A stretch of DNA of 39,585 bases. Origin: Sulfurimonas hongkongensis (GTDB lineage Bacteria; Campylobacterota; Campylobacteria; Campylobacterales; Sulfurimonadaceae). Positions 7,680 through 39,419 of the stretch are shown here, piece by piece (the stretch's first letter is position 1; every line of letters starts with the position of its first letter). The position numbers and the translations under genes were made by a program. The stretch spans positions 1-39,585 of the forward strand of contig NZ_AUPZ01000021.1 in the NCBI RefSeq assembly GCF_000445475.1, in the 5' to 3' direction. The notes beneath the pieces are model-generated. The model searched no databases. It saw only the letters and a program-made list of their open reading frames with translations, and was not told the DNA's origin.

Positions 7680-7813
7680 GTCATCCTGAACTTGATTCAC
7701 CGTCATCCTGAACTTGATTCACCGTCATCCTGAACTTGATTCACCGTCATCCTGAACTTGATCCGCCGTCATCCTGAACTTGATTCACCGTCATCCTGAA
7801 CTTGATTCAGGAT
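7680..7813 (+). repeat. Six-unit 22-bp tandem repeat array ending in a palindromic module
   Basis: Units begin at 7680, 7702, 7724, 7746, 7768 and 7790, an exact 22-base period, each opening GTCATCCTGAACTTGATTC. The fourth has CCG in place of TCA near its end. A decayed unit lies just before 7680. The last unit continues into a full palindrome: ATCCTGAA at 7793-7800, loop CTTGA, and TTCAGGAT at 7806-7813. The array therefore amplifies the left half of the palindrome. There are no unique spacers, so it is not a CRISPR array. It occupies the gap between the RND operon promoter and the 169-aa gene. Confidence 0.9.
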
Positions 7814-7877
7814 CTCATGGGATTCCTATTATATAGCTATACTAACCTCATTAACCTCTAGTCAAACTTGTTTTATG

Positions 7878-7890: not shown

Positions 7891-8400
7891 ATGAAAAGAG
7901 AAATTGTAGCAAACACATTTACACCGACATATGATGAGCTTGAAGATAGATTGAGATTTGTGATAAATTATCAAGATATTCAAAACAGAGTTGATTTTAT
8001 GATAACAAGAAGTTTTATCATAAATCTAATTTCTACTGCTGAGGAGTTTATAGCAAAACATTACTCCACTGCTGATTTTAAAAAAACTCTAATACAACAC
8101 AATATAAAAAAACAAGAGAGCCAAGAAAAGCTAGAACATACAAAAAGTCAGCAGAGTCAAGAAGATAGAGTTTTATTAAAAACAGATAGTGCAAATCTTG
8201 AACTTCTAAGAACAGACGAAGAGCTTCTGCTAGAGGTTAAGTTCTTCTTTGATATAAACTCAAAACATACTACTTTAACATTTAATTCTAAAAACATTAC
8301 AGCCAAAGCTGATTTAGATGGCTTTATGCTTATGCAAGTATTTCAAGTGATGAAATCTGCGATACCTTTTATAAAATGGGGAATATCTTACAATTTTTAA
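7891..8400 (+). CDS. Unrecognised 169-aa protein
   Basis: I do not recognise a family. The protein is soluble by composition, with no signal peptide and no clear membrane segment. Residues about 65-95 are polar and rich in Gln, Glu and Lys (helical or linker-like). The C-terminal third has alternating hydrophobics and ends with a short apolar helix (FMLMQVFQVMKSAIPFIKW). The ATG lacks a Shine-Dalgarno but has a -10-like TACAAT 7 bases upstream. It stands between two repeat/hairpin elements, ahead of the RAYT-SapC gene and in the same direction. A long imperfect hairpin separates it from that gene, so it may be a stand-alone transcript. Codon use resembles its neighbours. A role in the secretion island is only a guess from position. 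Confidence 0.65.
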   Translation: MKREIVANTFTPTYDELEDRLRFVINYQDIQNRVDFMITRSFIINLISTAEEFIAKHYSTADFKKTLIQHNIKKQESQEKLEHTKSQQSQEDRVLLKTDSANLELLRTDEELLLEVKFFFDINSKHTTLTFNSKNITAKADLDGFMLMQVFQVMKSAIPFIKWGISYNF

Positions 8401-8411
8401 AGGATCTGAGT

Positions 8412-8458
8412 ATGACTATGGCACTAATTTAAAACTAGTTAAATAGTGTCGGAGTCAT
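8412..8458. repeat. Long imperfect hairpin between the 169-aa gene and the RAYT-SapC gene
   Basis: ATGACT at 8412-8417 pairs with AGTCAT at 8453-8458, and, after a small internal mismatch, GCACTA at 8421-8426 pairs with TAGTGT at 8444-8449 (one G-T wobble). The apical loop is AT-rich. No run of T follows directly, so it is a poor intrinsic terminator. It could be a REP-like palindrome, a transcript boundary or a binding site. Confidence 0.55.
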
Positions 8459-8485
8459 TTAATAACCCCTTAAGTTTTATTTGCA

Positions 8486-8491
8486 TACAAT
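8486..8491 (+). promoter_or_regulatory. Candidate -10 element for the RAYT-SapC / type I secretion operon
   Basis: TACAAT at 8486-8491 is 30 bases before the TTG start at 8522. The -35 region is weak, which is common in Campylobacterota. An AAGGA ribosome site follows at about 8511. It is the best candidate for driving the operon that runs to 18699. Confidence 0.35.
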
Positions 8492-8521: not shown

Positions 8522-9907
8522 TTGGCACGAAAAGTTAGGATTTTTGTTAAAGATTCCCCGCAACATGTGATGCTAAAGAGTTTAGACAAACTTGCTCTTT
8601 TTAAAGACGAGTCAGACTATAGAGCATTTGTAGATATTTTAAAAGAGTCCAGTATAAACAGTGATTTGGCTATTCATGCTTATGTTTTGATGCCACATTT
8701 TTTTGAGTTTTTAGCCACTCCTTCAAAAGAAGATACTTTGTCAAAGTTTATGCAAAGTTTGGGTAGAAAATACGTCGGTTATTTTAACAAAAAGTATAAC
8801 CGCACAGGAACTCTCTTCCAAGGTAGATATAAATCTTCATTGGTTGAAGATGAGAAATATCTTTTTGATGTGATGCTCCACATAGAAAGGCTTGCACCAA
8901 AAGAGCATCTATTTAGCAGTGCTCATAAAAATCTTTATGGCAAAAAAGATGAGATAGTCTCTTACCATAGTTTGTATAAAAAACTTGGATTTACAGATGA
9001 GCAAAGAGTACAAAAATATAGTGAGTTTTTCAACTCTGCAGTTGATTATGATAAAGAAGATTTCATAACGATGTGTTTGGAAAAACAGAGCGTAACAGGC
9101 AGTGAGGATTTTGTAAAAAATCTTGAAAAAATTGTAGGATTTTCTCTAACTTTAAAAGCTAGAGGTCGCCCTAAAAAAGAACAAATTAAAAAAGGAAAAA
9201 AAATGTATAAAAATTTAGTAATGCTAGACAAAGAGAAACACAAAGAGCTAAAAATTAATCCTCTAGAGGACCTTAACTTTGCAAAATCAGCAACACACAT
9301 CCCTCTCTTAGCAAATGAGGTTGCACAAGTAGGTGCCGCATTTCCAGTTGTATTTACAGCAGGTGAAGCCCCAGAACTTACAGCTCTTGTCTCTTTAGGT
9401 GGTGATAGCTTGGCTATCAATGAAGAGGGCAAGTGGATAACTTCTTATGTACCATCATACTTAAGAAAGTACCCATTTTCTTTAGCAAGCACAAAAGAAA
9501 ATCCTGAGCAAAAAGTGATCCTTATAGATGAAGACTCCTCTCTTTTTTCAAAATCAAAAGGCAAGCAACTATTTAGAAAAAACGGTGACAAATCAGAGAC
9601 TCTAGAACACGCAATTGACTTTTTAACATCACATGAGAATCAAAGTAGTGTTACTCTAAATGTTGCAAAGCTTATCTTTCAAAGTGGAATCCTTGAAGAT
9701 AGAGAGATATCTGTGGGTGAGGGTGAAGAGAAAAAAGTGTTGGTAAATGGGTTTAAGGTAGTAAACAGAGAAAAACTAAATGAACTAAGTGATGATGTCT
9801 TGGCAGACTGGGTAAGAAAAGGGATCATGGCGATGATAGAGGCACATATAAAATCACTAGACAATATCCAAACTCTTTTTGAAATAGCACAAAAAAGACA
9901 AAGCTAA
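8522..9907 (+). CDS. Fusion of degenerate REP-associated tyrosine transposase (RAYT, Y1_Tnp) domain and SapC domain
   Basis: Residues 1-227 align with RAYT-type Y1 transposases. They open MARKVRIFVKDSPQHVMLKS and carry the AYVLMP segment and the YVGYFNKKYNRTGTLFQGRY block with the catalytic-tyrosine region. The metal-binding HUH site, normally MPNHxH, reads MPHFFEF, so both histidines appear lost and nuclease activity is unlikely. Residues 228-461 are a SapC domain (PF07277 type), named from C. fetus sapC. The TTG start at 8522 fits the RAYT N-terminus and has AAGGA 6 bases upstream. An in-frame ATG at 9203 exactly at the domain junction also has AAGGA with 6-base spacing, so free SapC could be made too. 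An A6-GG-A8 tract (9188-9203) lies at this junction. Three T1SS genes follow in the C. fetus sapCDEF order. The role of SapC is unknown. Confidence 0.82.
   Translation: MARKVRIFVKDSPQHVMLKSLDKLALFKDESDYRAFVDILKESSINSDLAIHAYVLMPHFFEFLATPSKEDTLSKFMQSLGRKYVGYFNKKYNRTGTLFQGRYKSSLVEDEKYLFDVMLHIERLAPKEHLFSSAHKNLYGKKDEIVSYHSLYKKLGFTDEQRVQKYSEFFNSAVDYDKEDFITMCLEKQSVTGSEDFVKNLEKIVGFSLTLKARGRPKKEQIKKGKKMYKNLVMLDKEKHKELKINPLEDLNFAKSATHIPLLANEVAQVGAAFPVVFTAGEAPELTALVSLGGDSLAINEEGKWITSYVPSYLRKYPFSLASTKENPEQKVILIDEDSSLFSKSKGKQLFRKNGDKSETLEHAIDFLTSHENQSSVTLNVAKLIFQSGILEDREISVGEGEEKKVLVNGFKVVNREKLNELSDDVLADWVRKGIMAMIEAHIKSLDNIQTLFEIAQKRQS
9192..9205 (+). promoter_or_regulatory. Internal ribosome binding site and ATG at the RAYT/SapC junction
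   Basis: AAGGA at 9192-9196, six bases, then ATG at 9203, in frame with the long ORF (codon 228). This is as good as the ribosome sites of neighbouring genes. Independent translation from here would give a 234-aa SapC, close to the usual family size of about 250 aa. The site coincides with an A8 tract, which could also slip. Confidence 0.55.
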
Positions 9908-9946: not shown

Positions 9947-11752
9947 ATGGCAAATAGACCATCAAGAGCAAAAAATAAAAAAGTATCAGAACTTAAAGAG
10001 GCTATATTAAAATCTAAAAAATCATTTTTGATGGTTGGTTTTTTTAGTCTATTTATAAACATTCTTATGCTGGTTCCGCCTCTTTATATGTTACAACTTT
10101 ATGATAGAGTTTTAGCAAGTAGAAGTGAAGACACTCTTATCATGTTAACACTGATAGTTGTTTTCCTATTTCTAATTATGGCACTTTTAGAAATCGTGAG
10201 ATCTCGCGTACTTGTAAAAGTTGGAAACAAGCTTGATAGTCAGCTTAGTCAAAGAGTTTTTGACTCCGTATTTGAGCTTGCACAAAAACATCCGGGTAAA
10301 GCTTCATCTATGCCCCTAAGTGACCTTACACAGATAAGACAGTTTATGACTGGAAATGGACTTTTTGCATTTTTTGATGCACCATGGATAGTTATCTATA
10401 TAGCGGTCTTATTTATATTTCACCCTATATTTGGCTATTTTGCTATATTTGCGGCGATTGTTCTGGTTGCTCTTACGATTATAAATGAGTACTCTACAAA
10501 GCAGAAGCTAGGTGAAGCAAATACGCTAAATCGCTCCTCAAACGCATATGTTGATGCAAATCTAAGAAATGCAGAGATAGTTCATGCTATGGGCATGAAA
10601 GATAGTATTCGAAAGATTTGGGAAAAACGATATTTTGGTTTTTTAAATGCACAAAATGATGCAAGTAACAGTGCGGGGGTTTTCTCAAATATCTCAAAAA
10701 GCTTAAGGATGCTTTTTCAATCACTCATCCTTGGAATAGGGGCTTATTTAGCTATTCATATGGAAGTTAGTCCGGGAATGATGATTGCGGGTTCTATTAT
10801 TATGGGTAGAGCATTGGCTCCGCTAGATCTTATTATTGGTAGCTGGAAAGGATTTAGTAGTGCAAGAGCTTCTTATGAAAAGCTAGAAGGGCTTCTAGAA
10901 GAGTTTCCAAAAGATAAAGAGTATATGCAGCTTCCTGCTCCAAAGGGAGAGGTTTTACTAGAGAGTGTGGTTGTTGTTCCTCCGGGAGCTGCTCAACCCT
11001 CGCTTAGAGGCATATCTATGTTAATTCAAAAGGGTGATATAGTGGGTATTATTGGGCCAAGTGCCGCAGGTAAATCCTCCCTTGCTAGAGTTATCTTAGG
11101 TCTTTGGCCACTCGCATCTGGTAAAGCAAGACTAGACAGAGCTGACATCTATCAATGGGATAAACATGATTTAGGAAAATTCATAGGATATCTGCCTCAG
11201 GATATTGAGCTTTTTGAAGGAACTATCTCTCAAAATATAGCAAGATTTGGTGAGCTTGATTCGCAAAAAATTGTAGATGCTGCACAAAGAGCAGGTGTTC
11301 ATGAGATGATACTAAGACTTCCTGATGGGTACGATACTAAAATAGGTGCAGGCGGAGCAACGCTCTCAGGTGGGCAAAGACAAAGAGTAGGACTTGCAAG
11401 AGCCATATATAATGACCCTGTTTTGGTTGTTTTAGATGAGCCTAACTCAAATCTTGATGATGTTGGAGAAGCAGGACTTGTAAATGCCATCAACCACTTA
11501 AAGCAGATAGGCTCAACTGTGGTAATTATCACGCATAGACCAAGCATCCTTCAAGTAACAAACAAGATAGCAGTTATAAAGCAAGGTAGCTTAGAGCTAT
11601 ATGGAAATACAAATGAGGTGCTGGCACAATTAGCCAAAAATGCACAACAAGCTAAGGCACAAAATGCTCCGGCAACACAGCCTAAGCCTCAGCCATCACA
11701 GGGTGCACCTAAGATATCACTCAGCAAGCCTGAAAATGGAGGAAAAGTATGA
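9947..11752 (+). CDS. Type I secretion system permease/ATPase (PrtD/SapD type)
   Basis: The inner-membrane ABC component that recognises the C-terminal signal of the secreted protein and powers its export in one step. The 601-aa protein has an N-terminal six-TM ABC exporter domain without a C39 peptidase domain, placing it with PrtD/RsaD/SapD-type transporters of RTX and S-layer proteins. Walker A GPSAAGKSS is at 370-378, the ABC signature LSGGQ is at 473-477, and Walker B ends VVLDEP with Asp497-Glu498. The last 40 residues are a low-complexity Ala, Gln and Pro tail. It follows the SapC fusion by 39 bases and overlaps the HlyD-type adaptor by 4. The likely cargo is the 1196-aa RTX protein at 32756. 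Confidence 0.94.
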   Translation: MANRPSRAKNKKVSELKEAILKSKKSFLMVGFFSLFINILMLVPPLYMLQLYDRVLASRSEDTLIMLTLIVVFLFLIMALLEIVRSRVLVKVGNKLDSQLSQRVFDSVFELAQKHPGKASSMPLSDLTQIRQFMTGNGLFAFFDAPWIVIYIAVLFIFHPIFGYFAIFAAIVLVALTIINEYSTKQKLGEANTLNRSSNAYVDANLRNAEIVHAMGMKDSIRKIWEKRYFGFLNAQNDASNSAGVFSNISKSLRMLFQSLILGIGAYLAIHMEVSPGMMIAGSIIMGRALAPLDLIIGSWKGFSSARASYEKLEGLLEEFPKDKEYMQLPAPKGEVLLESVVVVPPGAAQPSLRGISMLIQKGDIVGIIGPSAAGKSSLARVILGLWPLASGKARLDRADIYQWDKHDLGKFIGYLPQDIELFEGTISQNIARFGELDSQKIVDAAQRAGVHEMILRLPDGYDTKIGAGGATLSGGQRQRVGLARAIYNDPVLVVLDEPNSNLDDVGEAGLVNAINHLKQIGSTVVIITHRPSILQVTNKIAVIKQGSLELYGNTNEVLAQLAKNAQQAKAQNAPATQPKPQPSQGAPKISLSKPENGGKV

Positions 11753-13036
11753 GCGTAGATCAAGAGATAAAGATGCCCTCCACAAATGCCTCTAACGTTA
11801 TTGGCTTTGGTTTAATGGTTGTTTTTTTACTCCTTGGAGGATTTGGCGGATGGGCAGCTTTTGCGCCACTTGCAGAATCCTCAGTAGCAGTAGGTAAAAT
11901 TTCTGCAGATTTGGATAAAAAAAACCTCCAGCATTTAGAAGGTGGTGTAATAGAGAACATTTTTGTAAAAGATGGTGATGAAGTAAAAAAAGGTGATATG
12001 CTTTTAAAACTTAGAGATGTTCATATAAAGAGTCAGTTAGATATCTATAAAGCGCAGTATGATGATGCTTTGGCACTCTATGCTAGACTTGTAGCACAAA
12101 GAGACTCTAAAGATAGCGTAGTCTATCCTGATGAATTAGAAAACGAAAGTATTAAACAAGAGCAAGACAATATCTTCTACACAACCAAAAAGAGCATAGA
12201 AGATGAAAAGATCATCTCTCAAAACAGAGTTGTACAACTTGAAAACCAGATAGATGGTTTAGAGTCTTTAATGCGGGCTAAAAAGTCTAGACTAGAATCC
12301 ATAAAAGAGGAGATTTTGGAGTGGGAAGATCTTTATAGACAAAAGTTAGTTGATAAACTTAAAATCAGAGAGTTAGATAGAGAGCAAAATACTATAGAAG
12401 GAGATATCTCTCAAACAGCATCAGAAATTGCAAAACTAAAAGAGGCTATAAATGAGACAAAAAATCAGCAGCTCCTAAGAGAAAAAGAGTTTACAAAGCA
12501 GACACTAGGCGAGCTTGTGCAAGCAAAATCAATGCTTTTTGATCTCAAATCAAAAATACTTTCTGTTGAAGATACACTACTTAGAACAAATATAGTAGCA
12601 CCTATTGATGGTACGGTTGTGGGATTGAACCTGCATACAATTGGTGGCGTAGTCTCGCCGGGCAGGGATATTCTTCAAATTATCCCACAAAACTCAAAAC
12701 TTATAGTTGTAGCACAGGTGAAGACATCAGATGTTGACAAAGTCAAAGTTGGACTTATGGCAGATATAAGATTTTCAGCTTTTAATGTACAAAAAGCACA
12801 CGTTGTAGAGGGAAAGGTTGTTCATGTCTCAGCAGATAGTTTTATGGATGAGAAGAGTGGAATGCCTTACTATGAAGCAAAGATTGTGGTAACAAAAAAA
12901 GGTGAGATGCAACTTGTAGATTATGGATTTGAGTTGGTATCGGGTATGCCCGCAGAAGTTATGATAAAGACTTCTCAGAGAACAGTGCTTAGTTACTTAG
13001 TAAAACCGTTTACAGATATGATCGCGAGGGGATTCA

Positions 13037-13047
<11 letters not shown>
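11749..13047 (+). CDS. Type I secretion membrane-fusion protein (HlyD/PrtE/SapE type)
   Basis: The periplasmic adaptor of the T1SS. A cytoplasmic N-terminus is followed by a single TM segment at about residues 20-40 (FGLMVVFLLLGGFGGWAAF). Then come the lipoyl half motif (LEGGVIENIFVKDGDEVKKG), a long coiled-coil hairpin from about 105 to 265, the second lipoyl half (IVAPIDGTVVGLN), and a C-terminal beta-barrel ending with the usual VMIKTSQRTVLSYLVKPF motif. The 432-aa length is normal for the PrtE family. The start overlaps the ABC gene (ATGA) and the end overlaps the TolC-like gene by 11 bases, so the three genes are translationally coupled. Confidence 0.95.
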
Positions 13048-15390
<2,343 letters not shown>

Positions 15391-17388: not shown

Positions 17389-18699
17389 ATGAACAGTTCA
17401 AAATTTAACCCTTTTTCATATTTACTTACCTTTTTGCTTATTGGAGTTGATCTCTTTGCACTCTATATCTCTTTTGCACTTCTTAGGCAAAGAGAGTCCA
17501 CACCGCTGGATATATCTCTATATCTTTGGATTTTTGTTTTTATACTTTTAGCCTTTGGTGTGCAGAAGATATATACATTTCGGTATGATTTTTGGAGTGA
17601 TGCATTAAGAGTTATTAAGGGTCTTTTTTTCTCTTTTTTTGCGATTTTTACCATCATCTCTCTTGCAAAAGTTTTTGACACCTACTCGGTAGATTTTTTG
17701 TTAAAATTTTTTATACTCTCCATCTTTACAACACTTTTTTTCAAAAGAGTTTTTAAAAAAATCTTTTTCAGATTTGATGCCTTTAAACATAGAGTAAAGA
17801 TAGTCGCAGACGAACAAAACTATAACATCATAACTCAGGAGATAGAAAAAAACTGGTATTTTGGTTACAAAGAAGATGAAAAAAATTATGATCTCATTAT
17901 CATCTCTTCTCGCGGATTTGACTTAAATGAACTTCAAGAGAGAGTCAAAGAGCTCTCTCGCACCACAAAAGACATATTCATCATCCCATATCTGGACTAT
18001 TTAGATTTTTCACATGCGACAATAATCGACTTTTCAAACATTAGATTTTCAGCCATTCACATCCAAAATAGACTCCTAAGTGCTAAAAACATATTTATAA
18101 AGTCATTTTTTGAAAAAATCATCACACTTGTGCTTCTACCCCTTGCCTTAACACTACATATTTTTATCTTTTTTCTTATCAAAAGGGATTCACAAGGAGG
18201 AGTTTTTTTCAAGCAACAAAGATTAGGAAAAAATGCTAAACTCTTTGAGTGCTATAAATATCGTACAATGCACGAAGACTCACAAAACGTGCTAGAAGAG
18301 TATCTTTTAAAAAATCCCGATGAGGTTGAGCACTATAAAAAGTTTCACAAGTATAAAAATGATCCTCGCATCACAAAAGTAGGTAGCTTTTTAAGAAAAA
18401 CCTCATTAGATGAACTCCCTCAGTTTTACAACATACTAAAAGGCGATATGAATCTCATAGGGCCAAGACCTTACATGCCACAAGAACTCCATGCTATGGG
18501 TGAGGACAACAAAAATATCATCCTTAGAGTCAAACCGGGACTTACGGGTTTATGGCAGGTAAGTGGTAGAAACAAACTGACCTTTAAAAAAAGGGTTGAT
18601 TTAGATGCTTGGTATATACAAAACTGGTCTCTATGGATGGACTTTGTTATATTTTTAAAAACAACAAAAGTAGTACTTCTAAAAGTTGGCGCAAAATAA
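17389..18699 (+). CDS. Polyprenyl-phosphate hexose-1-phosphate transferase (WbaP-like initiating sugar transferase)
   Basis: An inner-membrane enzyme that transfers a sugar phosphate to undecaprenyl phosphate to start a glycan. The 436-aa protein has N-terminal TM helices (about residues 10-125), a CoA-binding-like middle domain, a further TM helix at about 245-265, and the bacterial sugar transferase domain (PF02397) with GGVFFKQQRLGKNAKLFECYKYRTM, RKTSLDELPQFYNILKGDM, GPRPYMP and VKPGLTGLWQVSGRN. It is the last gene before the repeat region at 18716. Whether it starts the O-chain exported by Wzm/Wzt or another glycan (for example on protein) is open, since many ABC-dependent O-antigens start from WecA instead. 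Confidence 0.92.
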   Translation: MNSSKFNPFSYLLTFLLIGVDLFALYISFALLRQRESTPLDISLYLWIFVFILLAFGVQKIYTFRYDFWSDALRVIKGLFFSFFAIFTIISLAKVFDTYSVDFLLKFFILSIFTTLFFKRVFKKIFFRFDAFKHRVKIVADEQNYNIITQEIEKNWYFGYKEDEKNYDLIIISSRGFDLNELQERVKELSRTTKDIFIIPYLDYLDFSHATIIDFSNIRFSAIHIQNRLLSAKNIFIKSFFEKIITLVLLPLALTLHIFIFFLIKRDSQGGVFFKQQRLGKNAKLFECYKYRTMHEDSQNVLEEYLLKNPDEVEHYKKFHKYKNDPRITKVGSFLRKTSLDELPQFYNILKGDMNLIGPRPYMPQELHAMGEDNKNIILRVKPGLTGLWQVSGRNKLTFKKRVDLDAWYIQNWSLWMDFVIFLKTTKVVLLKVGAK

Positions 18700-18740
18700 A
18701 CCACCTCCCTCGTCCTCCCTCGTCATTCCACACTTCACCC

Positions 18741-18870
18741 GACGTTCAAACCTTCCACCCGACATTCAAACACTCACCACCCGACGTTCAAACACTCATC
18801 ACCCGACGTTCAAACACTCATCACCCGACGTTCAAACACTCATCACCCGACGTTCAAACACTCATCACCC
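18741..18870. repeat. Tandem array of about 22-bp units (GACGTTCAAACACTCATCA type)
   Basis: Units begin at 18741, 18761, 18783, 18805, 18827 and 18849. The first is 20 bases long, the rest exactly 22, and the later ones are identical. The array runs straight into the palindromic module at 18871. No unique spacers are present. The open frame through this stretch codes for low-complexity nonsense and is not treated as a gene. Confidence 0.9.
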
Positions 18871-18929
18871 GTCATTCCGTGCTTGACACGGAATCCAGTT
18901 TTTGGATCCTGAATCAAGTTCAGGATGAC
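18871..18929. repeat. Pair of convergent palindromic modules
   Basis: The first module is GTC, then ATTCCGTG (18874-18881), loop CTTGA, CACGGAAT (18887-18894). The second is ATCCTGAA (18906-18913), loop TCAAG, TTCAGGAT (18919-18926), then GAC. Both have 8-bp perfect stems, the same loop in opposite orientation and GTC on the outside. The second is the exact reverse complement of the module at 7790-7813. Confidence 0.88.
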
Positions 18930-19021
18930 GATTCGCTTGTTCAGGATGACGATTCGCTTGTTCAGGATGACGATTCGCTTGTTCAGGATGACGATTCGCT
19001 TGTTCAAAATGACAACTTTCG
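18918..19021. repeat. Tandem array of 21-bp units (GTTCAGGATGACGATTCG type)
   Basis: Units begin at 18918, 18939, 18960 and 18981, with an exact 21-base period and identical sequence, followed by a decayed copy at 19002. Each unit repeats the outer half of the palindrome (TTCAGGATGAC) plus ten bases. Being seven codons long, it keeps an open frame that would read as Leu-Val-Gln-Asp-Asp-Asp-Ser repeats, which I regard as accidental. Confidence 0.9.
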
Positions 19022-19050
19022 ATATTCCACACCCCACCCATCTAAGTTTA

Positions 19051-19079
19051 TAGACAAATAAGCATCTAAGTGCTAAAAT
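19051..19079 (+). promoter_or_regulatory. Candidate sigma70 promoter of the manC-wzm-wzt operon
   Basis: TAGACA (19051-19056), 17 bases, then TAAAAT (19074-19079) with an extended TG at 19071-19072. Transcription would begin near 19086, just before the AAGGGGA ribosome site of manC. It is one of the best promoter matches in the window and lies directly after the repeat array. Confidence 0.6.
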
Positions 19080-32755: not shown

Positions 32756-35700
32756 ATGGCTTTAACAAAAACTCAAGTATCTCAACTCTATGTATCTTTA
32801 TTCGGAAGAGCATCAGAGGGTGAAGGTAATACACACTGGCAAGCAGAAGCCGATATGGCAACAGCTGCAAACGCTATGTTAGATACAGATGCTGCAAACA
32901 CATACTTTGGTGGCGAGCTTGCTGATCAAGCGTTTATTGAGTATATTTACTTAAACACACTTGGTAAAACATATGCAGAAGATAGCTCTGGTGTTGACTT
33001 TTGGACAAATGCTCTTGCAACAAACTCAAGAGGCACAGTAGTTGCAGAACTTATTAAGTCAGCAGTAGAGATCCAAAACACAGCTCCAACAGCAGCTTCT
33101 CAACAATTTGCTAACCGTGTAGAAGTATCTGACTATACAGCGGACACTCTAGCAACACCTCCAGCAGACTATGCAACATCAACTGCATTCGCTTCAGCTA
33201 ACAAACCAGCAGGTGCATTGACTGTTACTGATGACGCAGCTACTGTTACTACTGCAAAATCTAAGATTGATTCAGTTAACCCTGACCATGGCGAGACTTT
33301 CGTGCTTACTAAAAGTGTCAGCGATGAAGTAGTAAACGGTACTGAAAAAAATGACATATTTGATGCTACTGAACTTGGCTCACTTCAAAATGGTGACTTA
33401 GTATTAGATAACACTACGACAGATAGCGATATTTTAAACGCTTCAGTAAACTCTGATAGCATATCTGCAAGAATCCAAAATGTTGAAACACTTAACATTC
33501 AAGGTGAGTTTGTAAAAACAGGATTTAATCTTACAAATGTGAGTGGCACAAAAGATCTTAACCTAAGCACTAAAATCGCTGGTGGTGTAGCAACTGTTAC
33601 AGCTGCAAACTCACTAAATGCTGAAAACATCAACGCTGGTACAAACATAGCTACTCTTGATATTACTTCACTTACATCTGGAACAAGAGATGAAGTAACT
33701 GTAGATGCAGGTGCTGCTACAACTATTAACCTAACAGGTGCTGCAGCTGGTGCTGATAACTATAATGTAACAGCTACTGATGATGCTACAGTTACTTTAA
33801 CAACTATTAACTCAGCTGGTGATACTGTTACTATAAACGCTGCAGGTGAATTAGAATTAGACTCTGCTCAAGGTGCTGCTGCTGGTGTTACTACTATGAC
33901 TCAAAATCTTGAGTTAGATATCAACGCAAGTGATGATTTAGAAGTAACACTTTCTCAAAGCGCTGCAGGTGCCCTTATCGGTAAAGAAGTTACTTTATCA
34001 GGAAATGGTGACATCACATTAGTGAGTACAAATGGACTTGATTTAATGGGTAGTTATGACACAACTGTAGGGGTAGTACAAAATTATGACGGTGTAAAAG
34101 TAACTGCTTCAAACAGTGGAGTTTCTACAATTGCTATTGATACTTTGACTCTTAATAACACAGTAGCAGCAAGCGTTGCAACGATTGATCTATCTAAAGC
34201 AGCTGTAGATATTATTAGTCTAACTGGTGGTACAGCTGGAGCAGCTGCAGTAAATACAACTGGTACAACTACTATCAACGAAAACACAACACTAAACCTT
34301 GCAGCTGACTTAGGTGGTAATGGTTTGACTTTAAATGTAGATAATGGAGATAAAGATACAGCATTTACAACTGGTACTGCTATGATGACTATCTCTGAAG
34401 CACAAACTTCAGCTGGTTCTGTAATAACAACAGGTGCATCGGTAGATACACTACTTATCTCTGCAGAAGCTGATGAAGTAACAGACTATGATGCTGATGA
34501 AAATGGATTTGATGAAATCTCTTCTATGGTTGTAGATGATGTTACTTTAAGTGCTGCAGTTTCTACTGGTGGTGCTACAACTGATACTTCAACTGATGTT
34601 ATGGTTGTTCAAGGTGATGAAAACATCACATTTAACAACATCACTGTTATGAACTACGGTCAAGTAATCTCTGCTGCTAGCCTTGAGGGAGACCTTACAA
34701 TCAATAGTGTAACAGACTCAGATGTTGGTGCGACTGCAAATGCTGCGAAGTTTGTAACTATCGTTGGCGGTAAAGGTGATGATATTATTACTACAGGTAC
34801 TAATACAAAACTTGATGTACAAGCAATGTACGGAGATAACATTATAAATGTAGCGACTGCTGCAGCTGGTACTAAAGTAACAACTGGTGCTGGAGATGAT
34901 AGAATTACTTCAAGTACTACTGCTACAACTATCAAAGCTGGTGCAGGTAACGATACTGTTATTGCAGCTGGAAATGATACTATCTGGACAGAAGCTGGAA
35001 GTGATAAAATTGAAATTACTGATAACCTTGCTACAGTAGGTACTGTTACAGTAAAAGATTTTGTTAAAGGTACAGATACTGTAGTTCTTACTACTGCAAC
35101 TGCTGCTGGTAATATCAGACTTGATAATCTAGATGTAGCTGCTGGTGTATATACAGTTGCTGGAACTGCTGCTGGTGCTGGTGTTTGGGATGTCAAACTT
35201 GAAAATAGTGGTACACTATTAAGCTCAAAAGACATGAGAGATTCTATCCAAGTTAGAAATGTAACTCTTGATACTACAGCTGCATCTGTAAATGTTCTTG
35301 GTAATAAAGATGATTCTGTAATTGTTGCAGCAGGAAAAATGGCAACTGTTACTTTAGGTGGTGGAGATGACTCAGTTGAAATTGTAACAGCTGCTGCTGC
35401 TACTGCTCCTCACGCAACTATCAAAGACTTTACAGTTGGTGAAGATAAGGTTATTTTAACTAGTGCTTCATCTACTGCTTCAACAAAAGTTAATGTAAAT
35501 CTTAAGAATGTATCTGATGTTCTAGGTGTATACACTATCGGTGATGCAACAATTGGAGCTGATATTAAGCTTGAAAATGGTGGAAGTGATATCGTAACTG
35601 ATAATGACTTAGAATCAATGGTGCAACTTGGTAAAGCGACTGCTGCATTTACTGTAGAAAATGCAGCTACAGCTACAGCTGCAACTGATAGTAGTGTAAC

Positions 35701-36346
35701 AGTAAGTGGTGGTAAGTTTGATGATGTTGTTGAATTAGTATTTACAGCTAATACAACTGGAAAGGAAAACAATGTTACTTACAACTTTAAAAACGATGGT
35801 GGTGTTGATACGATAATTATGGCTGCAAATGTTGCAGCAACTGGAGCAAATGTAGATCATGGTTCTTATGTCGATTTCAACCAAATCACAGGTATAGATA
35901 CAATCACTGATGCAGCTAATAAAAAAGTTGATTTAGCAGCTAATGCGTCTAAAATTGCAGATGCTAAAGATAGTGCTGTATATGTATTTGCTGATAGTAG
36001 TGATGGTACAGGAAGTGCAGAGATTACAACTTTCGTAAAACATACAGCAAATGGTTATACACAAGAGGTAATAGATGATGAGATAGCAGCATTTATTAAC
36101 GCTGGTCTTGGTGTACAAGATGGTGAAAACTATATAGTAGTTATCAACGATCAATCTACTGCAACATATCAGGCTGCAGCTGGTGGCGGACAAGATGTTG
36201 GTACAACAGACTACGACGCTTATGCTTACCTAGTAAAAGGTGATGCAGATGGTGTTCAAGCTGACAACATCACTTTAATCGGTATGTTAGATGATGACAA
36301 TGGAACTGCAGGTGACACTGTTTTCACAGCTCTAGATATCGCATAA
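32756..36346 (+). CDS. Large RTX/DUF4214 beta-repeat protein, probable S-layer-like T1SS substrate
   Basis: A 1196-aa secreted protein. Residues 1-110 resemble a DUF4214-type helical domain (SQLYVSLFGRASEGEG, then IYLNTLGKTYAEDSSGVDFW), as also seen at the N-terminus of RsaA-like S-layer proteins and likely the anchor. The rest is rich in Thr, Ala, Val, Asp and Gly in beta-strand repeats, with RTX-like calcium motifs GGKGDD (671), GAGDDR (711), GAGNDT (729) and GGGDDS (868). Two copies of a unit of about 123 aa start at 766 (VKDFVKGTDTVVLT) and 889 (IKDFTVGEDKVILT). I see no cysteine and no Sec signal; the acidic and Thr/Ala-rich C-terminus is right for an uncleaved T1SS signal. It has a TAAGGAGG ribosome site, its own promoter and terminator, all fitting an abundant product. 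A large adhesin is the alternative. Confidence 0.85.
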   Translation: MALTKTQVSQLYVSLFGRASEGEGNTHWQAEADMATAANAMLDTDAANTYFGGELADQAFIEYIYLNTLGKTYAEDSSGVDFWTNALATNSRGTVVAELIKSAVEIQNTAPTAASQQFANRVEVSDYTADTLATPPADYATSTAFASANKPAGALTVTDDAATVTTAKSKIDSVNPDHGETFVLTKSVSDEVVNGTEKNDIFDATELGSLQNGDLVLDNTTTDSDILNASVNSDSISARIQNVETLNIQGEFVKTGFNLTNVSGTKDLNLSTKIAGGVATVTAANSLNAENINAGTNIATLDITSLTSGTRDEVTVDAGAATTINLTGAAAGADNYNVTATDDATVTLTTINSAGDTVTINAAGELELDSAQGAAAGVTTMTQNLELDINASDDLEVTLSQSAAGALIGKEVTLSGNGDITLVSTNGLDLMGSYDTTVGVVQNYDGVKVTASNSGVSTIAIDTLTLNNTVAASVATIDLSKAAVDIISLTGGTAGAAAVNTTGTTTINENTTLNLAADLGGNGLTLNVDNGDKDTAFTTGTAMMTISEAQTSAGSVITTGASVDTLLISAEADEVTDYDADENGFDEISSMVVDDVTLSAAVSTGGATTDTSTDVMVVQGDENITFNNITVMNYGQVISAASLEGDLTINSVTDSDVGATANAAKFVTIVGGKGDDIITTGTNTKLDVQAMYGDNIINVATAAAGTKVTTGAGDDRITSSTTATTIKAGAGNDTVIAAGNDTIWTEAGSDKIEITDNLATVGTVTVKDFVKGTDTVVLTTATAAGNIRLDNLDVAAGVYTVAGTAAGAGVWDVKLENSGTLLSSKDMRDSIQVRNVTLDTTAASVNVLGNKDDSVIVAAGKMATVTLGGGDDSVEIVTAAAATAPHATIKDFTVGEDKVILTSASSTASTKVNVNLKNVSDVLGVYTIGDATIGADIKLENGGSDIVTDNDLESMVQLGKATAAFTVENAATATAATDSSVTVSGGKFDDVVELVFTANTTGKENNVTYNFKNDGGVDTIIMAANVAATGANVDHGSYVDFNQITGIDTITDAANKKVDLAANASKIADAKDSAVYVFADSSDGTGSAEITTFVKHTANGYTQEVIDDEIAAFINAGLGVQDGENYIVVINDQSTATYQAAAGGGQDVGTTDYDAYAYLVKGDADGVQADNITLIGMLDDDNGTAGDTVFTALDIA

Positions 36347-36375
36347 TCTCTTTTAACCATAAAGAGTTAACTTTT

Positions 36376-36415
36376 GGCATACTCTTCCCCTTTTGGGAAG
36401 GGTTGCCATTTTATT
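36376..36415 (+). terminator. Rho-independent terminator after the S-layer-like gene
   Basis: CTTCCC (36384-36389), loop CTTTT, GGGAAG (36395-36400), extended by GGCA (36376-36379) with TGCC (36404-36407), then ATTTTATTT. A second small stem (CTCTTT/AAAGAG, 36347-36366) precedes it. This isolates the gene as a monocistronic unit, perhaps with some readthrough into the sulfotransferase operon. Confidence 0.75.
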
Positions 36416-36492
36416 TAATCCCCAAACAGTTTTATATTTTAGTGTGTGTAGACTCACCTACTCAAATATAAAAAGAACAATGAAAGCAGTCT

Positions 36493-38442
36493 ATGAATCC
36501 AAACACAGAAACTATAAAAAATAATATTTTAGAACTATATAATGCTAAAAAGTATAAAGAGGCAATAGAAGAAGCTAAAAAACACGACTTTGATAACCTT
36601 TTCTTATACAATCTTATGGCTAGTTGCTACAAATACATAAAAGAGTATGAAAACTCTTTAGAATATTTTCAAAAAGCCCTAGCTGAGGGACAAAACTATC
36701 ATATCTACTACAATCTTGCTAATCTTTATGAGATGATGGAGAAGTATGATGATGCCATAAAAAACTATGAACTCTCCCTATCACTTGAGAAAAACCAACC
36801 CCTTTGCCTACAAAACATTGGACATTGCCATATGCAAGCTAAACGCTCAGATAAAGCACTAGCATATCTAAAAAAAGCATATAAACTTGATAAGAAAAAT
36901 GCCGCAATTGCCAATTCTCTTGCAACTGCTTATAAAGATGTAAGCGATGCAAGTTCAGCCACAAAGTACTATAAAGAAGCAATAAAACTAGACCCTAAAA
37001 ATCCAAATGGCTATAACAACATTGGAGTTCACTATATGAACCTTAATGAAAAAGAAAAAGCCTTGGAGTGCTATGCTAAAGCTCTAGAAATAAAACCTGA
37101 TGATATGGTAACTCACCGCCATATCACTATGATAAGTAAGTATGATAAAGACTCAGATCATCTAGCACAGATGTTAGAGTTTGAAAAAAAAACTACAGAT
37201 AAAGAACAACTCTGCCAACTTTGCTACGCTTTGGCTAAGGCTCATGAAGATATAGGAGATTATGATAAATTTTTTCATTATCTAAATCTAGCAAGTGAGT
37301 TAAGATTACAAACAAATGAGTATGACTTTCAAAAAGAGACCAATACCTTTAAACTTGTCAAATACTTCCATAATAAACATAAAGATTCTAAAGTAGATAA
37401 AAGAAAACTCGTTAAAGGTAAGCAGCCTATCTTTGTGATTGGTATGCCACGAAGTGGTACAACGCTAGTTGAGCAGATTTTATCTAGCCACTCTAGCGTT
37501 CATGGTGCAGGAGAACTCTACTACTTCTCAAACCTTGCAAAAAAAACACTAGAAAAAGTGCTAAAGAAAGAGGATTATGACTACTCCAAAGAGGTAGCAA
37601 ACTTGCGAAAAGGCTACTATGAAGCTATAAAAGCTCATAATATAAAAGAACCAATATTTGTAGATAAGATGCCTGAGAACTTTAAGTTTGTGCATATGAT
37701 GATAGATGCATTCCCAGAAGCTAAAATAGTACACTTAAATCGTGACCCTATGGCAGTTTGCTGGAGTATGTATAAACAGTATTTCCATGCAGGAATCTAT
37801 TACTCATGTAATCAACGCTACCTTGGTCGCTTTCATAAGCTGTATCAGCATATTATGAAGTATTACAATGAAGCTTATGGTAATAAAATATATAATCTAA
37901 ACTATGAAGCTCTCACAGAGAACCAAGAAGAAGAGACTAGAAAACTACTAGAGTATTGTGAACTACCTTGGGAAGATAGTTGTTTGGAGTTTCATAAGAA
38001 TAAAAGAGCTGTAGCAACTGCAAGTAACCAGCAGGTGCGAAAAGGAATGTACAAAGGTAGCTCAAAAGCGTGGAAAAAGTATGAAAAATATCTACAGCCA
38101 CTTATGGAAGAACTTGATAAAGAGGGCTGTGCTCTTGATAATAAAGCCCTAGATGGAATCTATCATGATACAATCAACCAAATCCGTCACTTAAAGCAGC
38201 TTATGGGGATTACGCAAACAGCTAGAAATGTTTACGCAAATGCTCTAAAAAAGGAAGTACCAAAAAAACAAGCTCCAAAAGGTCAAACACAAGGTATAGC
38301 AACTATAAATGATAAAAACTATCTCATAGATGACCTTAGCCAAAAAGCCAAAGAGTATCTTGCAAGCTATAAAGCTTCTCAAGAGAGAGTAGAACTACTT
38401 GAGCGAAAGCTAGAGATCGCTAAAACAGCTCTTCAACAATAA
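36493..38442 (+). CDS. TPR-repeat sulfotransferase with DUF6447-like C-terminal tail
   Basis: Predicted cytosolic PAPS-dependent sulfotransferase, 649 aa. Residues about 15-250 are 34-residue TPR repeats (for example YYNLANLYEMMEKYDDAIKNY), a protein- or glycan-binding superhelix. Residues about 310-560 are a sulfotransferase domain: 5'-phosphosulfate loop GMPRSGTT at 317-324 and 3'-phosphate site RDPMAVCWS with Arg417 and Ser425 in the R-x7-S spacing. The tail carries ITQTARNVYANAL at 573-585 and a TINDKNYLIDDLSQKAKEYL segment from 604, both matching the small protein encoded next, but in shifted order. The ATG at 36493 gives the first TPR; its ribosome site is modest. The acceptor is unknown; the O-chain or the exported RTX protein are candidates, and cysD nearby fits the need for PAPS. 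Confidence 0.88.
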   Translation: MNPNTETIKNNILELYNAKKYKEAIEEAKKHDFDNLFLYNLMASCYKYIKEYENSLEYFQKALAEGQNYHIYYNLANLYEMMEKYDDAIKNYELSLSLEKNQPLCLQNIGHCHMQAKRSDKALAYLKKAYKLDKKNAAIANSLATAYKDVSDASSATKYYKEAIKLDPKNPNGYNNIGVHYMNLNEKEKALECYAKALEIKPDDMVTHRHITMISKYDKDSDHLAQMLEFEKKTTDKEQLCQLCYALAKAHEDIGDYDKFFHYLNLASELRLQTNEYDFQKETNTFKLVKYFHNKHKDSKVDKRKLVKGKQPIFVIGMPRSGTTLVEQILSSHSSVHGAGELYYFSNLAKKTLEKVLKKEDYDYSKEVANLRKGYYEAIKAHNIKEPIFVDKMPENFKFVHMMIDAFPEAKIVHLNRDPMAVCWSMYKQYFHAGIYYSCNQRYLGRFHKLYQHIMKYYNEAYGNKIYNLNYEALTENQEEETRKLLEYCELPWEDSCLEFHKNKRAVATASNQQVRKGMYKGSSKAWKKYEKYLQPLMEELDKEGCALDNKALDGIYHDTINQIRHLKQLMGITQTARNVYANALKKEVPKKQAPKGQTQGIATINDKNYLIDDLSQKAKEYLASYKASQERVELLERKLEIAKTALQQ

Positions 38443-38462
38443 ATAAAACATAAGGAAAAACA

Positions 38463-38654
38463 ATGGCAGAAACAATTACAATAGATGGAAAAACATATAA
38501 CACAGATAAACTCTCAGATGAAGCAAAGGATCAGCTAAGTTCATTGCAGATAACAGATAAAGAGATAGCAAGTCTAAAAACTCAAACAGCAATAGCCCAA
38601 ACAGCAAGAAACGCTTACGCAAAAGCACTAGCTGATGCCCTACCAAAAGATTAG
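38463..38654 (+). CDS. Small DUF6447-family protein
   Basis: A 63-aa protein of unknown function, I believe of family DUF6447. It has an N-terminal beta-type segment ITIDGKTYNTDKLSDEAKDQL, then a helix, and ends with IAQTARNAYAKALADAL at 44-60. It has a good AAGGA ribosome site and lies 20 bases after the sulfotransferase gene. The same sequence elements are fused to the C-terminus of that sulfotransferase, which suggests a shared partner or regulatory contact. SapC follows 6 bases after its stop. Confidence 0.8.
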   Translation: MAETITIDGKTYNTDKLSDEAKDQLSSLQITDKEIASLKTQTAIAQTARNAYAKALADALPKD

Positions 38655-38660
38655 GCTCAT

Positions 38661-39419
38661 ATGAGACTAATCCCAATTAGCAAAAACCTAGATATTAACA
38701 CTAGCTATGCACCACACAGCAATGATTATACTTTTGCTAAAAACATCTCAATAGCCCCAGCACTCCTAGCTGAACTTCCTCAACTCATAACAAGCTATAC
38801 ACTTTGCTTTTTAAAAAAAGAAGATAGTTATGAGCTAGTAGTTCTAACAGGAGATACAAACACCAACTGCTACATAAACCCAAAAGGTATATGGCTATGC
38901 GAGATAATCCCTGCACATTTTAAATCATATCCATTCTTTATAGCTAAAGATAAAAACAGTAACCTAGTCCTATCAATAGATGAAGAGGCTTTACAAAAGG
39001 CAGAAGATTCCCAAAGTATATTTAGCAGTGAGCATAACCTAACTCCTGAGGTACAAAAAACAGCAGAGTTTTTACAAAGCTGCCACAGCAATAAACTACA
39101 AACTAAAAAAGCAGTAGATGCCCTAGCTAAGCATGAGCTTTTTACTCCATTTGAAATTGAGATAGTAGATGCAGAGAAAAAGACACTACAAGGTATCTAT
39201 GCTATAGATGAAGAAAAGCTAAACACCTTAGAGGCAGATACTCTAAAAGAGCTAAGAGATAACTCAGCACTAACAGTAGCCTATGCACAACTCTTCTCAA
39301 GAGCCAATGAGTCACAACTAAGTAAACGATTGCAATATATACAGACGCAAGAACCAAAAAAAGACAAGATTGATTTAGATAACTTTTTTAGCGAGAACAA
39401 TTCAATAAGCTTTACATAG
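38661..39419 (+). CDS. SapC-family protein (second copy)
   Basis: A 252-aa cytosolic-looking protein of the SapC family (PF07277 type), the full usual length. Family features seen are an N-terminal FAKNISIAPALLAELPQLI segment, a central strand region with GIWLCEIIPAHFKSYPFFIA, and a C-terminal half with GIYAIDEEKLNTLEADTL. It is a distant paralogue of the SapC half of the fusion at 8522, where the matching parts read VPSYLRKYPFSLA and KVVNREKLNELSDDVL. SapC genes accompany S-layer T1SS genes in C. fetus, where the function is unresolved. It is part of the sulfotransferase, DUF6447, SapC operon. The ribosome site is weak, so coupling to the upstream gene is likely. Confidence 0.85.
   Translation: MRLIPISKNLDINTSYAPHSNDYTFAKNISIAPALLAELPQLITSYTLCFLKKEDSYELVVLTGDTNTNCYINPKGIWLCEIIPAHFKSYPFFIAKDKNSNLVLSIDEEALQKAEDSQSIFSSEHNLTPEVQKTAEFLQSCHSNKLQTKKAVDALAKHELFTPFEIEIVDAEKKTLQGIYAIDEEKLNTLEADTLKELRDNSALTVAYAQLFSRANESQLSKRLQYIQTQEPKKDKIDLDNFFSENNSISFT

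Follow-up and report, generated by a model that had tools for sequence, protein, structure and literature searches.

What does a transposase relative do once it has become the front half of a SapC protein at the head of a type I secretion operon? The question is raised by a gene of Sulfurimonas hongkongensis (NZ_AUPZ01000021.1), which occupies positions 8522-9907 on the plus strand of the stretch of 39,585 nucleotides that was analysed as a whole (the window) and forms a single frame of 461 codons with a TTG start. Its N-terminal half is related to the REP-associated tyrosine transposases (RAYT, or TnpA-REP). The features on which the argument turns are the following:

8412-8458, plus strand: conserved imperfect hairpin, candidate RAYT target (arms 8412-8429 and 8441-8458; covariation; covariance-model match)
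8486-8491, plus strand: TACAAT, a -10-like hexamer 30 nt before the TTG, with a similar hexamer in relatives
8522-9907, plus strand: RAYT-SapC fusion gene, long product, TTG start
8522-9178, plus strand: RAYT (TnpA-REP) half, residues 1-219, with F60, E62, H120 and L124 in place of the catalytic residues
9192-9196, plus strand: AAGGA, Shine-Dalgarno sequence of the internal start, conserved across fusion genes
9203-9907, plus strand: SapC half from the internal ATG, probable 234-residue short product (ATG in 26 of 28 fusion genes; complete-domain fold)
9947-11752, plus strand: type I secretion ABC transporter, PrtD-like (TIGR01842, E 6e-235)
11749-13047, plus strand: HlyD-family adaptor (TIGR01843, E 4e-104)
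13037-14347, plus strand: TolC-family outer membrane protein (OEP, E 5e-51)

That a RAYT domain is fused in frame to SapC, and that the gene heads a type I secretion operon, had been put forward in the original prediction, and both statements hold. The frame is single, the Pfam SapC profile matches residues 235-452 over its whole length (positions 1-220 of 220; E 2.3e-58), the fold of the other half matches PDB entry 4er8, and the ABC, HlyD and TolC genes follow at 9947-14347. An ABC gene stands behind the fusion on the same strand not only in the window but also in 26 of the 27 other fusion loci. Profile searches, proposed as a check on both domains, left no question over SapC and gave a borderline answer for the RAYT half: the Y1_Tnp match (residues 15-111) scored 22.2 bits in the protein scan, just below the cut-off of 23, and 25.2 bits, above it, in the genome scan, where it was the sole Y1_Tnp match of S. 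hongkongensis at E 0.001. The NCBIfam REP_Tyr_transpos match was weak (27.1 bits against a cut-off of 80). The predicted boundary, RAYT to residue 227 and SapC from 228, proved right for SapC, which starts at Met228, but not for the RAYT half, whose real end is the RGRPKK at 214-219. Since some standalone Campylobacterales RAYTs (e.g. L108 and L109) also carry RGRPKK at the C-terminus, the RAYT half looks complete to residue 219 and not truncated by the fusion. The linker between the halves has low confidence in the AlphaFold2 model (213-225) and is disordered.

The model of the fusion protein, built on 38 aligned sequences, has a mean pLDDT of 88.3, and its best PDB match is 4er8, the E. coli REP-associated tyrosine transposase with a REP hairpin (Foldseek E 4.1e-6). 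Overlaying residues 1-188 on this E. coli TnpA-REP structure with VIA-align gave Z 16.0 over 152 residues (rmsd 2.6), which bears out the RAYT/Y1 fold that had been claimed. The active site of class 2 TnpA-Y1 enzymes is described, in excerpts of PMC6006769 and PMC8266576, as an HUH motif plus the Tyr of Y---NP, the Asn of the latter being a metal ligand (Y115 and N119 in E. coli). In a profile alignment with 4er8 the HUH and YIExNP columns fall at their expected places. There the window protein reads MPHFFEF (residues 57-63) and, in place of Y---NP, HIERLAP; with F60, E62, H120 and L124, all four catalytic positions are changed. The original prediction had noticed that the HUH site is degenerate, and the structural alignment of the metal ligands not only upholds this but adds the replacement of Tyr and Asn. 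It had also taken YVGYFNKKYNRTG for the tyrosine block; this is a conserved core motif, the catalytic tyrosine being the Y of Y---NP. Judged by its aligned residues, the RAYT half of the window protein has lost its nuclease site.

Relatives with an intact HUH do exist, a point that the original prediction missed. The HUH columns are covered by 24 fusion genes, which can hence be judged for catalytic residues. The HUH pair, absent from the window protein, is kept as HxH in four of them (L016, L047, L080 and L082); the catalytic Tyr is kept in 22, the exceptions being the window gene and L083 (Phe); the metal-binding Asn is kept in three (L016, L047 and L082), and the same three have the whole catalytic set. 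Glu stands in place of the second His in 19 of the 24, and in a clade of 18 genes aromatic-x-Glu-Phe makes up a new conserved motif at the HUH place. The RAYT half is basic throughout the eight genes for which the pI was calculated (9.0-9.7).

How widespread and how old is this arrangement? Our search beyond Campylobacterota consisted of patterns from the window protein run against the genome collection, together with plasmid records. In the genome collection these patterns found 17 loci, 14 of them fusions (L004-L017, with L014 and L015 cut at the 5′ end) and three plain RAYT-like genes. Looking for the fusion in other Campylobacterota, as had been suggested, revealed it in at least 17 of 398 Campylobacterales genomes, many of them metagenome bins, from seven families (f1, f6, f9, f10, f11, f12 and f20). 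Fusions were recognised from the length of the open frame that contains SapC and from inspection of the sequences; those of G289 and G330 are cut by contig ends, that of G072 has a much reduced RAYT half, and for SapC fragments at contig ends (G206, G326:C27 and G342) no decision between fused and unfused was possible. Loci L034, L040, L042 and L085 duplicate others and were counted once. A long SapC frame in G149 turned out on inspection not to be a fusion. Among plasmids, 65 records matched, none over 80% of the query, and the best-ranked one, from Thiodictyon, has a stop codon ahead of its SapC and lacks a RAYT. Titles and abstract openings of the open-access literature, searched among other ways with SapC, transposase, fusion and S-layer combined, did not yield a transposase-SapC fusion.

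In the RAYT tree, which includes 23 of the 28 fusion genes (the 5′-cut L014, L015, L033 and L048 and the reduced L087 were left out), all 23 fusion rows lie on one side of a branch with support 100/99, and the 18 dead fusions on one side of another, again 100/99. The SapC tree counts against the best reading of the locus in that its fusion rows are not one clade, because a RAYT-less SapC of genome G011 falls among the dead fusions; constraining the fusion rows together was not rejected (p-AU 0.075). In G011 the operon begins with this RAYT-less SapC, a member of the dead-fusion lineage, and L016, the fusion with an intact HUH, lies divergently beside it. All 24 fusion genes that reach the aligned start have TTG there (L032, L080 and L082 have an additional in-frame ATG a few codons upstream), against none of 23 standalone RAYT genes (21 ATG, one GTG and one unresolved). 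The frame is open, as far as sequenced, in 27 of the 28 fusion genes, L008 having a TAG in its RAYT half. By these comparisons of sequences the fusion is old.

The RAYT half has also been kept. Nei-Gojobori estimates on 16 pairs of fusion genes gave dN/dS of 0.08-0.22 for the RAYT half (13 full-length computable pairs, omitting two dS-saturated pairs and the 76-codon pair L014/L015, ratio 0.30) and of 0.02-0.18 for the SapC half (15 pairs, one saturated pair omitted), all rough values because dS ranges from 0.5 to above 1. Twelve of the 13 RAYT pairs lie within the dead clade. As read from these ratios, purifying selection acts on both halves, and on the RAYT half plainly so, after the catalytic loss. 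The domestication envisaged in the original prediction is thus backed by a single old fusion clade in the RAYT tree, by purifying selection and by the position in the operon.

A second feature, overlooked in that prediction, is an internal start at the beginning of SapC. Met228 is encoded by ATG (9203) in 26 of the 28 fusion genes, and most of these 26 have AAGGA before it. The AAGGA is read as K-G-K or as R-K, so that the nucleotides are kept though the codons differ. Arg codons within the last five codons before Met228 are AGG in 14 of 16 cases, compared with 28 of 460 (6%) in the rest of the same genes (Fisher 2e-14, a value that, like every p-value here, the kinship of the sequences makes too small). 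At column -3, where the Arg codon forms the Shine-Dalgarno sequence, AGG takes 13 of 15, the next best of 14 Arg columns reaching 5 of 24. Shine-Dalgarno-like words precede the Met228 codon in 25 of 28 genes, the average over 453 columns being 8%; since a few columns of the SapC half equal this level, the plain motif count is less telling. Compared across the fusion genes, the internal Shine-Dalgarno sequence and start codon are conserved beyond coding need. In L087 both occur two codons further on; L008 has the internal start intact in spite of its TAG; and L016, with ATA and no Shine-Dalgarno sequence, is the only gene without any internal start and has a separate SapC gene adjoining. Taken alone, the SapC part is predicted to be a complete domain (pLDDT 93.4, pTM 0.86), and a search of the PDB with this prediction gave no match at E 0.001. 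The conserved ATG and Shine-Dalgarno sequence, together with the AGG bias, argue that the gene probably makes two products, RAYT-SapC from the TTG and SapC from the internal ATG. Such a hidden second start would mislead anyone deleting or tagging the gene.

The third feature lies in front of the gene. In the 21 of 28 fusion genes whose upstream DNA was aligned (L016, L041, L087 and the 5′-cut genes were left out), the match to the hairpin model ends 50-64 nt before the TTG. Its stem has 13 pairs, and in the 21 sequences 89.4% of the cells form standard pairs, against 31-52% in slid controls; eight of the 13 pairs have changed on both sides, with 22 such cells against 9.3 in shuffles. In the HxH-keeping L047, L080 and L082 the hairpin sequence is different and the stem fully paired, and in many hairpins of the dead clade an A-G mismatch adjoins a G-U pair. 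The sense strand has 39 G-U pairs to 8 A-C mismatches (seven columns against one), an excess expected if it is the sense strand that folds, even if with related sequences this is not a formal test. The GTAG foot of classical REPs was not seen beside the hairpin when the alignment was inspected by eye.

In the genome of S. hongkongensis the covariance model has a single strong match (8406-8466, E 1.1e-13), the next distinct place having E 4. Across the 398 Campylobacterales genomes, matches of E 1e-5 or better occur in 14 of the 17 with the fusion and in none of the other 381, most of the matched sites having served to build the model. Three strong sites outside the model (G323:C7, G289:C134 and G011:C19) are also beside RAYT genes, those at G323:C7 and G289:C134 ending before SapC at contig ends. 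The HxH-keeping genomes G336, G138, G300 and G011 have one hairpin place each. By contrast, 19 RAYT-less SapC loci, searched with about 1.5 kb of flank, gave nothing beyond one match at E 6. No strong match was found in G330, which is cut 5′ of the RAYT half, or in G072, and L041 has a RAYT half and no model match, the right arm alone being recognisable by eye. The G072 gene (L087; 7616-8707, minus strand) has a shrunken RAYT half without the YFNK core and matches the hairpin model only marginally, which looks like a joint loss of both in progress. In G011 (L016/L085) the hairpin lies between the divergent HUH-intact RAYT-SapC and RAYT-less SapC genes. A second strong hairpin in G323, considered as the mark of another target gene, precedes a second RAYT gene cut by the contig end. 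Weak matches without the fusion (G010, G078, G146, G321 and G386; E 4.5e-5 to 0.005) and a second weak match in G374 were taken as chance; reading the frames around the G321 and second G374 places revealed no RAYT or SapC.

In 23 of 23 genes a hexamer resembling TATAAT, taken as the one that fits best near 30 nt, ends 25-37 nt ahead of the TTG. A promoter scan that required a -35 element listed no more sites than in shuffles, and TACAAT at 8486-8491 was not among them. In C. fetus, however, promoters have an AT-rich signal instead of a -35 motif, according to an excerpt of PMC3887049, and a lone -10 is therefore normal. By its coordinates the hairpin is in operator position; it precedes the likely -10 and is thus probably not part of the mRNA made from this promoter. 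Further upstream, the gene at 7891-8400 encodes a protein of 169 residues with no Pfam match at E 0.001, and a relative of it precedes the fusion in the same orientation at 13 other loci. Relatives of this protein are also encoded directly behind a RAYT-less sapC in L044 and L046.

The target envisaged in the original prediction was a different one, namely the palindromes at 7790 and 18871, for which the protein would be a REP-binding factor. The palindrome at 7790-7814 exactly matches a repeat with a 25-base core, GTCATCCTGAACTTGATTCAGGATC, of which the genome has 34 exact copies and which stands partly in tandem at 7680-7814; a second copy, at 18905-18929, adjoins the palindrome at 18871. 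The repeat occurs in 22 of the 398 genomes, in 2 of 17 with the fusion and 20 of 381 others (Fisher p 0.24). This lack of association speaks against the REP-binding proposal, and we have dropped the dispersed palindrome as a partner of the fusion. The Y1_Tnp scan of the genome at E 0.001 found no other Y1 transposase able to move the repeat. The single-copy hairpin at 8412-8458 is the better candidate target.

Two further regions of the window may be mentioned. Between a sugar transferase gene and the next gene, 18609-19061 contains short tandem repeats (CCCGACGTTCAAACACTCATCA and TTCAGGATGACGATTCGCTTG units). The region 32756-39419 encodes a DUF4214 protein of 1196 residues (32756-36346), a TPR-sulfotransferase protein and then the second, divergent SapC copy of the window (38718-39317); the DUF4214 protein may be among the substrates of the type I system.

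What, then, is the RAYT half for? A dead RAYT that has kept one hairpin next to its own promoter would be expected to bind rather than to cut, and autoregulation is favoured for this reason. The hairpin might instead serve some unrelated regulator as its operator, or belong as an RNA element to an upstream transcript, with RAYT-SapC only travelling along. Physical linkage speaks for this, since co-inheritance alone yields an association and a linked operon would carry any protein's operator; co-occurrence thus does not show RAYT binding, and in G011 the hairpin precedes an operon whose first gene is a RAYT-less SapC. Yet the same G011 hairpin adjoins the HUH-intact RAYT-SapC, the 19 RAYT-less SapC loci gave no such hairpin beyond the match at E 6, and the hairpin is kept in L007, where the upstream gene is on the opposite strand, and in L008, L011, L013, L032, L043 and L083, where the gene was not found beside the fusion (the upstream DNA being short in some). 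We regard a mere travelling companion as somewhat unlikely. The opposite extreme, a fusion that is still an active REP-type nuclease moving dispersed palindromes, could appeal to the four relatives with HxH, three of them with Tyr and Asn as well, and to the 34 copies of the REP-like core; it is hardly credible given the four changed catalytic positions of the window protein, the unlinked palindrome and the single hairpin place in each HxH-keeping genome.

Binding of nucleic acid would not be needed if the RAYT half were a protein module for oligomerisation or for targeting SapC to the secretion machine. Both the loss of catalytic residues and the new aromatic-x-Glu-Phe motif of the 18-gene clade would fit such a module, and long and short forms of secretion components are known, as an excerpt of PMC13059759 describes for SpaO; the half nevertheless stays basic and the hairpin stays beside the gene, and we consider a pure protein module unlikely. 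The RAYT half could even be a passenger, its frame a translated leader without a function of its own in front of SapC made from the internal start. The conserved start itself, the TAG of L008, the reduced L087 and the RAYT-less SapC of the dead-fusion lineage in G011 all point this way. A passenger, however, would hardly be expected to retain low dN/dS, a confident complete fold and a frame open in all sequenced genes but one, and we think this explanation rather less probable still.

We therefore return to autoregulation. The events would have begun in an ancestor of several Campylobacterales families, where a RAYT gene was joined, most simply by loss of its stop codon, to the sapC gene that headed a PrtD/HlyD/TolC operon. 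In the lineage of the window the metal-binding residues would then have been lost (in the window the catalytic tyrosine too) while selection kept the RAYT half. The long RAYT-SapC made from the TTG would bind, through its RAYT half, the private hairpin just upstream of the operon promoter, and this binding would regulate the SapC/type I secretion operon by feedback. SapC would be the partner or reporting module, and free SapC, made from the internal ATG with its own Shine-Dalgarno sequence, a partner or competitor. According to an excerpt of PMC8266576, E. coli TnpA-REP binds folded single-stranded REPs, needs an irregularity in mid-stem and ignores the inverse strand. From the observed architecture, loss of the site, purifying selection and conservation of internal start and hairpin, we infer the presence of both products in cells, the binding of the hairpin by RAYT and the feedback control. 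Counting against the mechanism are the missing GTAG foot, a hairpin that may fall outside the mRNA, L041 with its RAYT half but no model match, and the lack of strong matches in G330 and G072. We give the mechanism as a whole, a nuclease-dead RAYT and a private REP-like hairpin as autoregulator of the operon, close to an even chance. More tentatively, it may be a new kind of regulator, a reader of folded single-stranded DNA or RNA hairpins that is tethered to SapC and reports to its own operon, with short SapC tuning the response.

Overall, the evidence suggests a former transposase recruited as a regulator in sulfur-oxidising bacteria. Stages of this domestication are still visible among the fusions, from the intact fusion through the half-lost and the lost site to the eroded domain, and with them go a single candidate target and an output that can be measured, type I secretion. 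The system also offers a handle on SapC, a domain for which the structure search found no counterpart.

Compared with known systems, the window protein resembles the RAYT/TnpA-REP proteins (E. coli 4er8; class 2 TnpA-Y1) in its fold, in a length to RGRPKK like that of standalone relatives and in the hairpin adjacent to the gene. It departs from them in being fused to SapC and in having HUH, Tyr and Asn replaced, and its hairpin is single-copy and lacks the GTAG foot; the multi-copy dispersed repeat is not linked to the fusion. An excerpt of PMC8266576 describes TnpA-REP as the first domesticated prokaryotic transposase. With the S-layer type I secretion locus of Campylobacter fetus our locus shares a SapC domain next to PrtD/HlyD/TolC genes. 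The SapC of C. fetus stands alone, whereas that of the window carries an N-terminal RAYT half and an internal start. PMC3887049 counts sapC among the components of the Sap transporter. Finally, there is a parallel to SpaO of the Salmonella type III secretion sorting platform, although the proteins and the type of secretion are unrelated and, in our case, a transposase relative makes up the N-terminal part and the short form is a prediction only. The short form of SpaO is made by internal initiation. What the two have in common is the scheme of one gene with long and short products that share their C-terminal part, as outlined for SpaO in an excerpt of PMC13059759.
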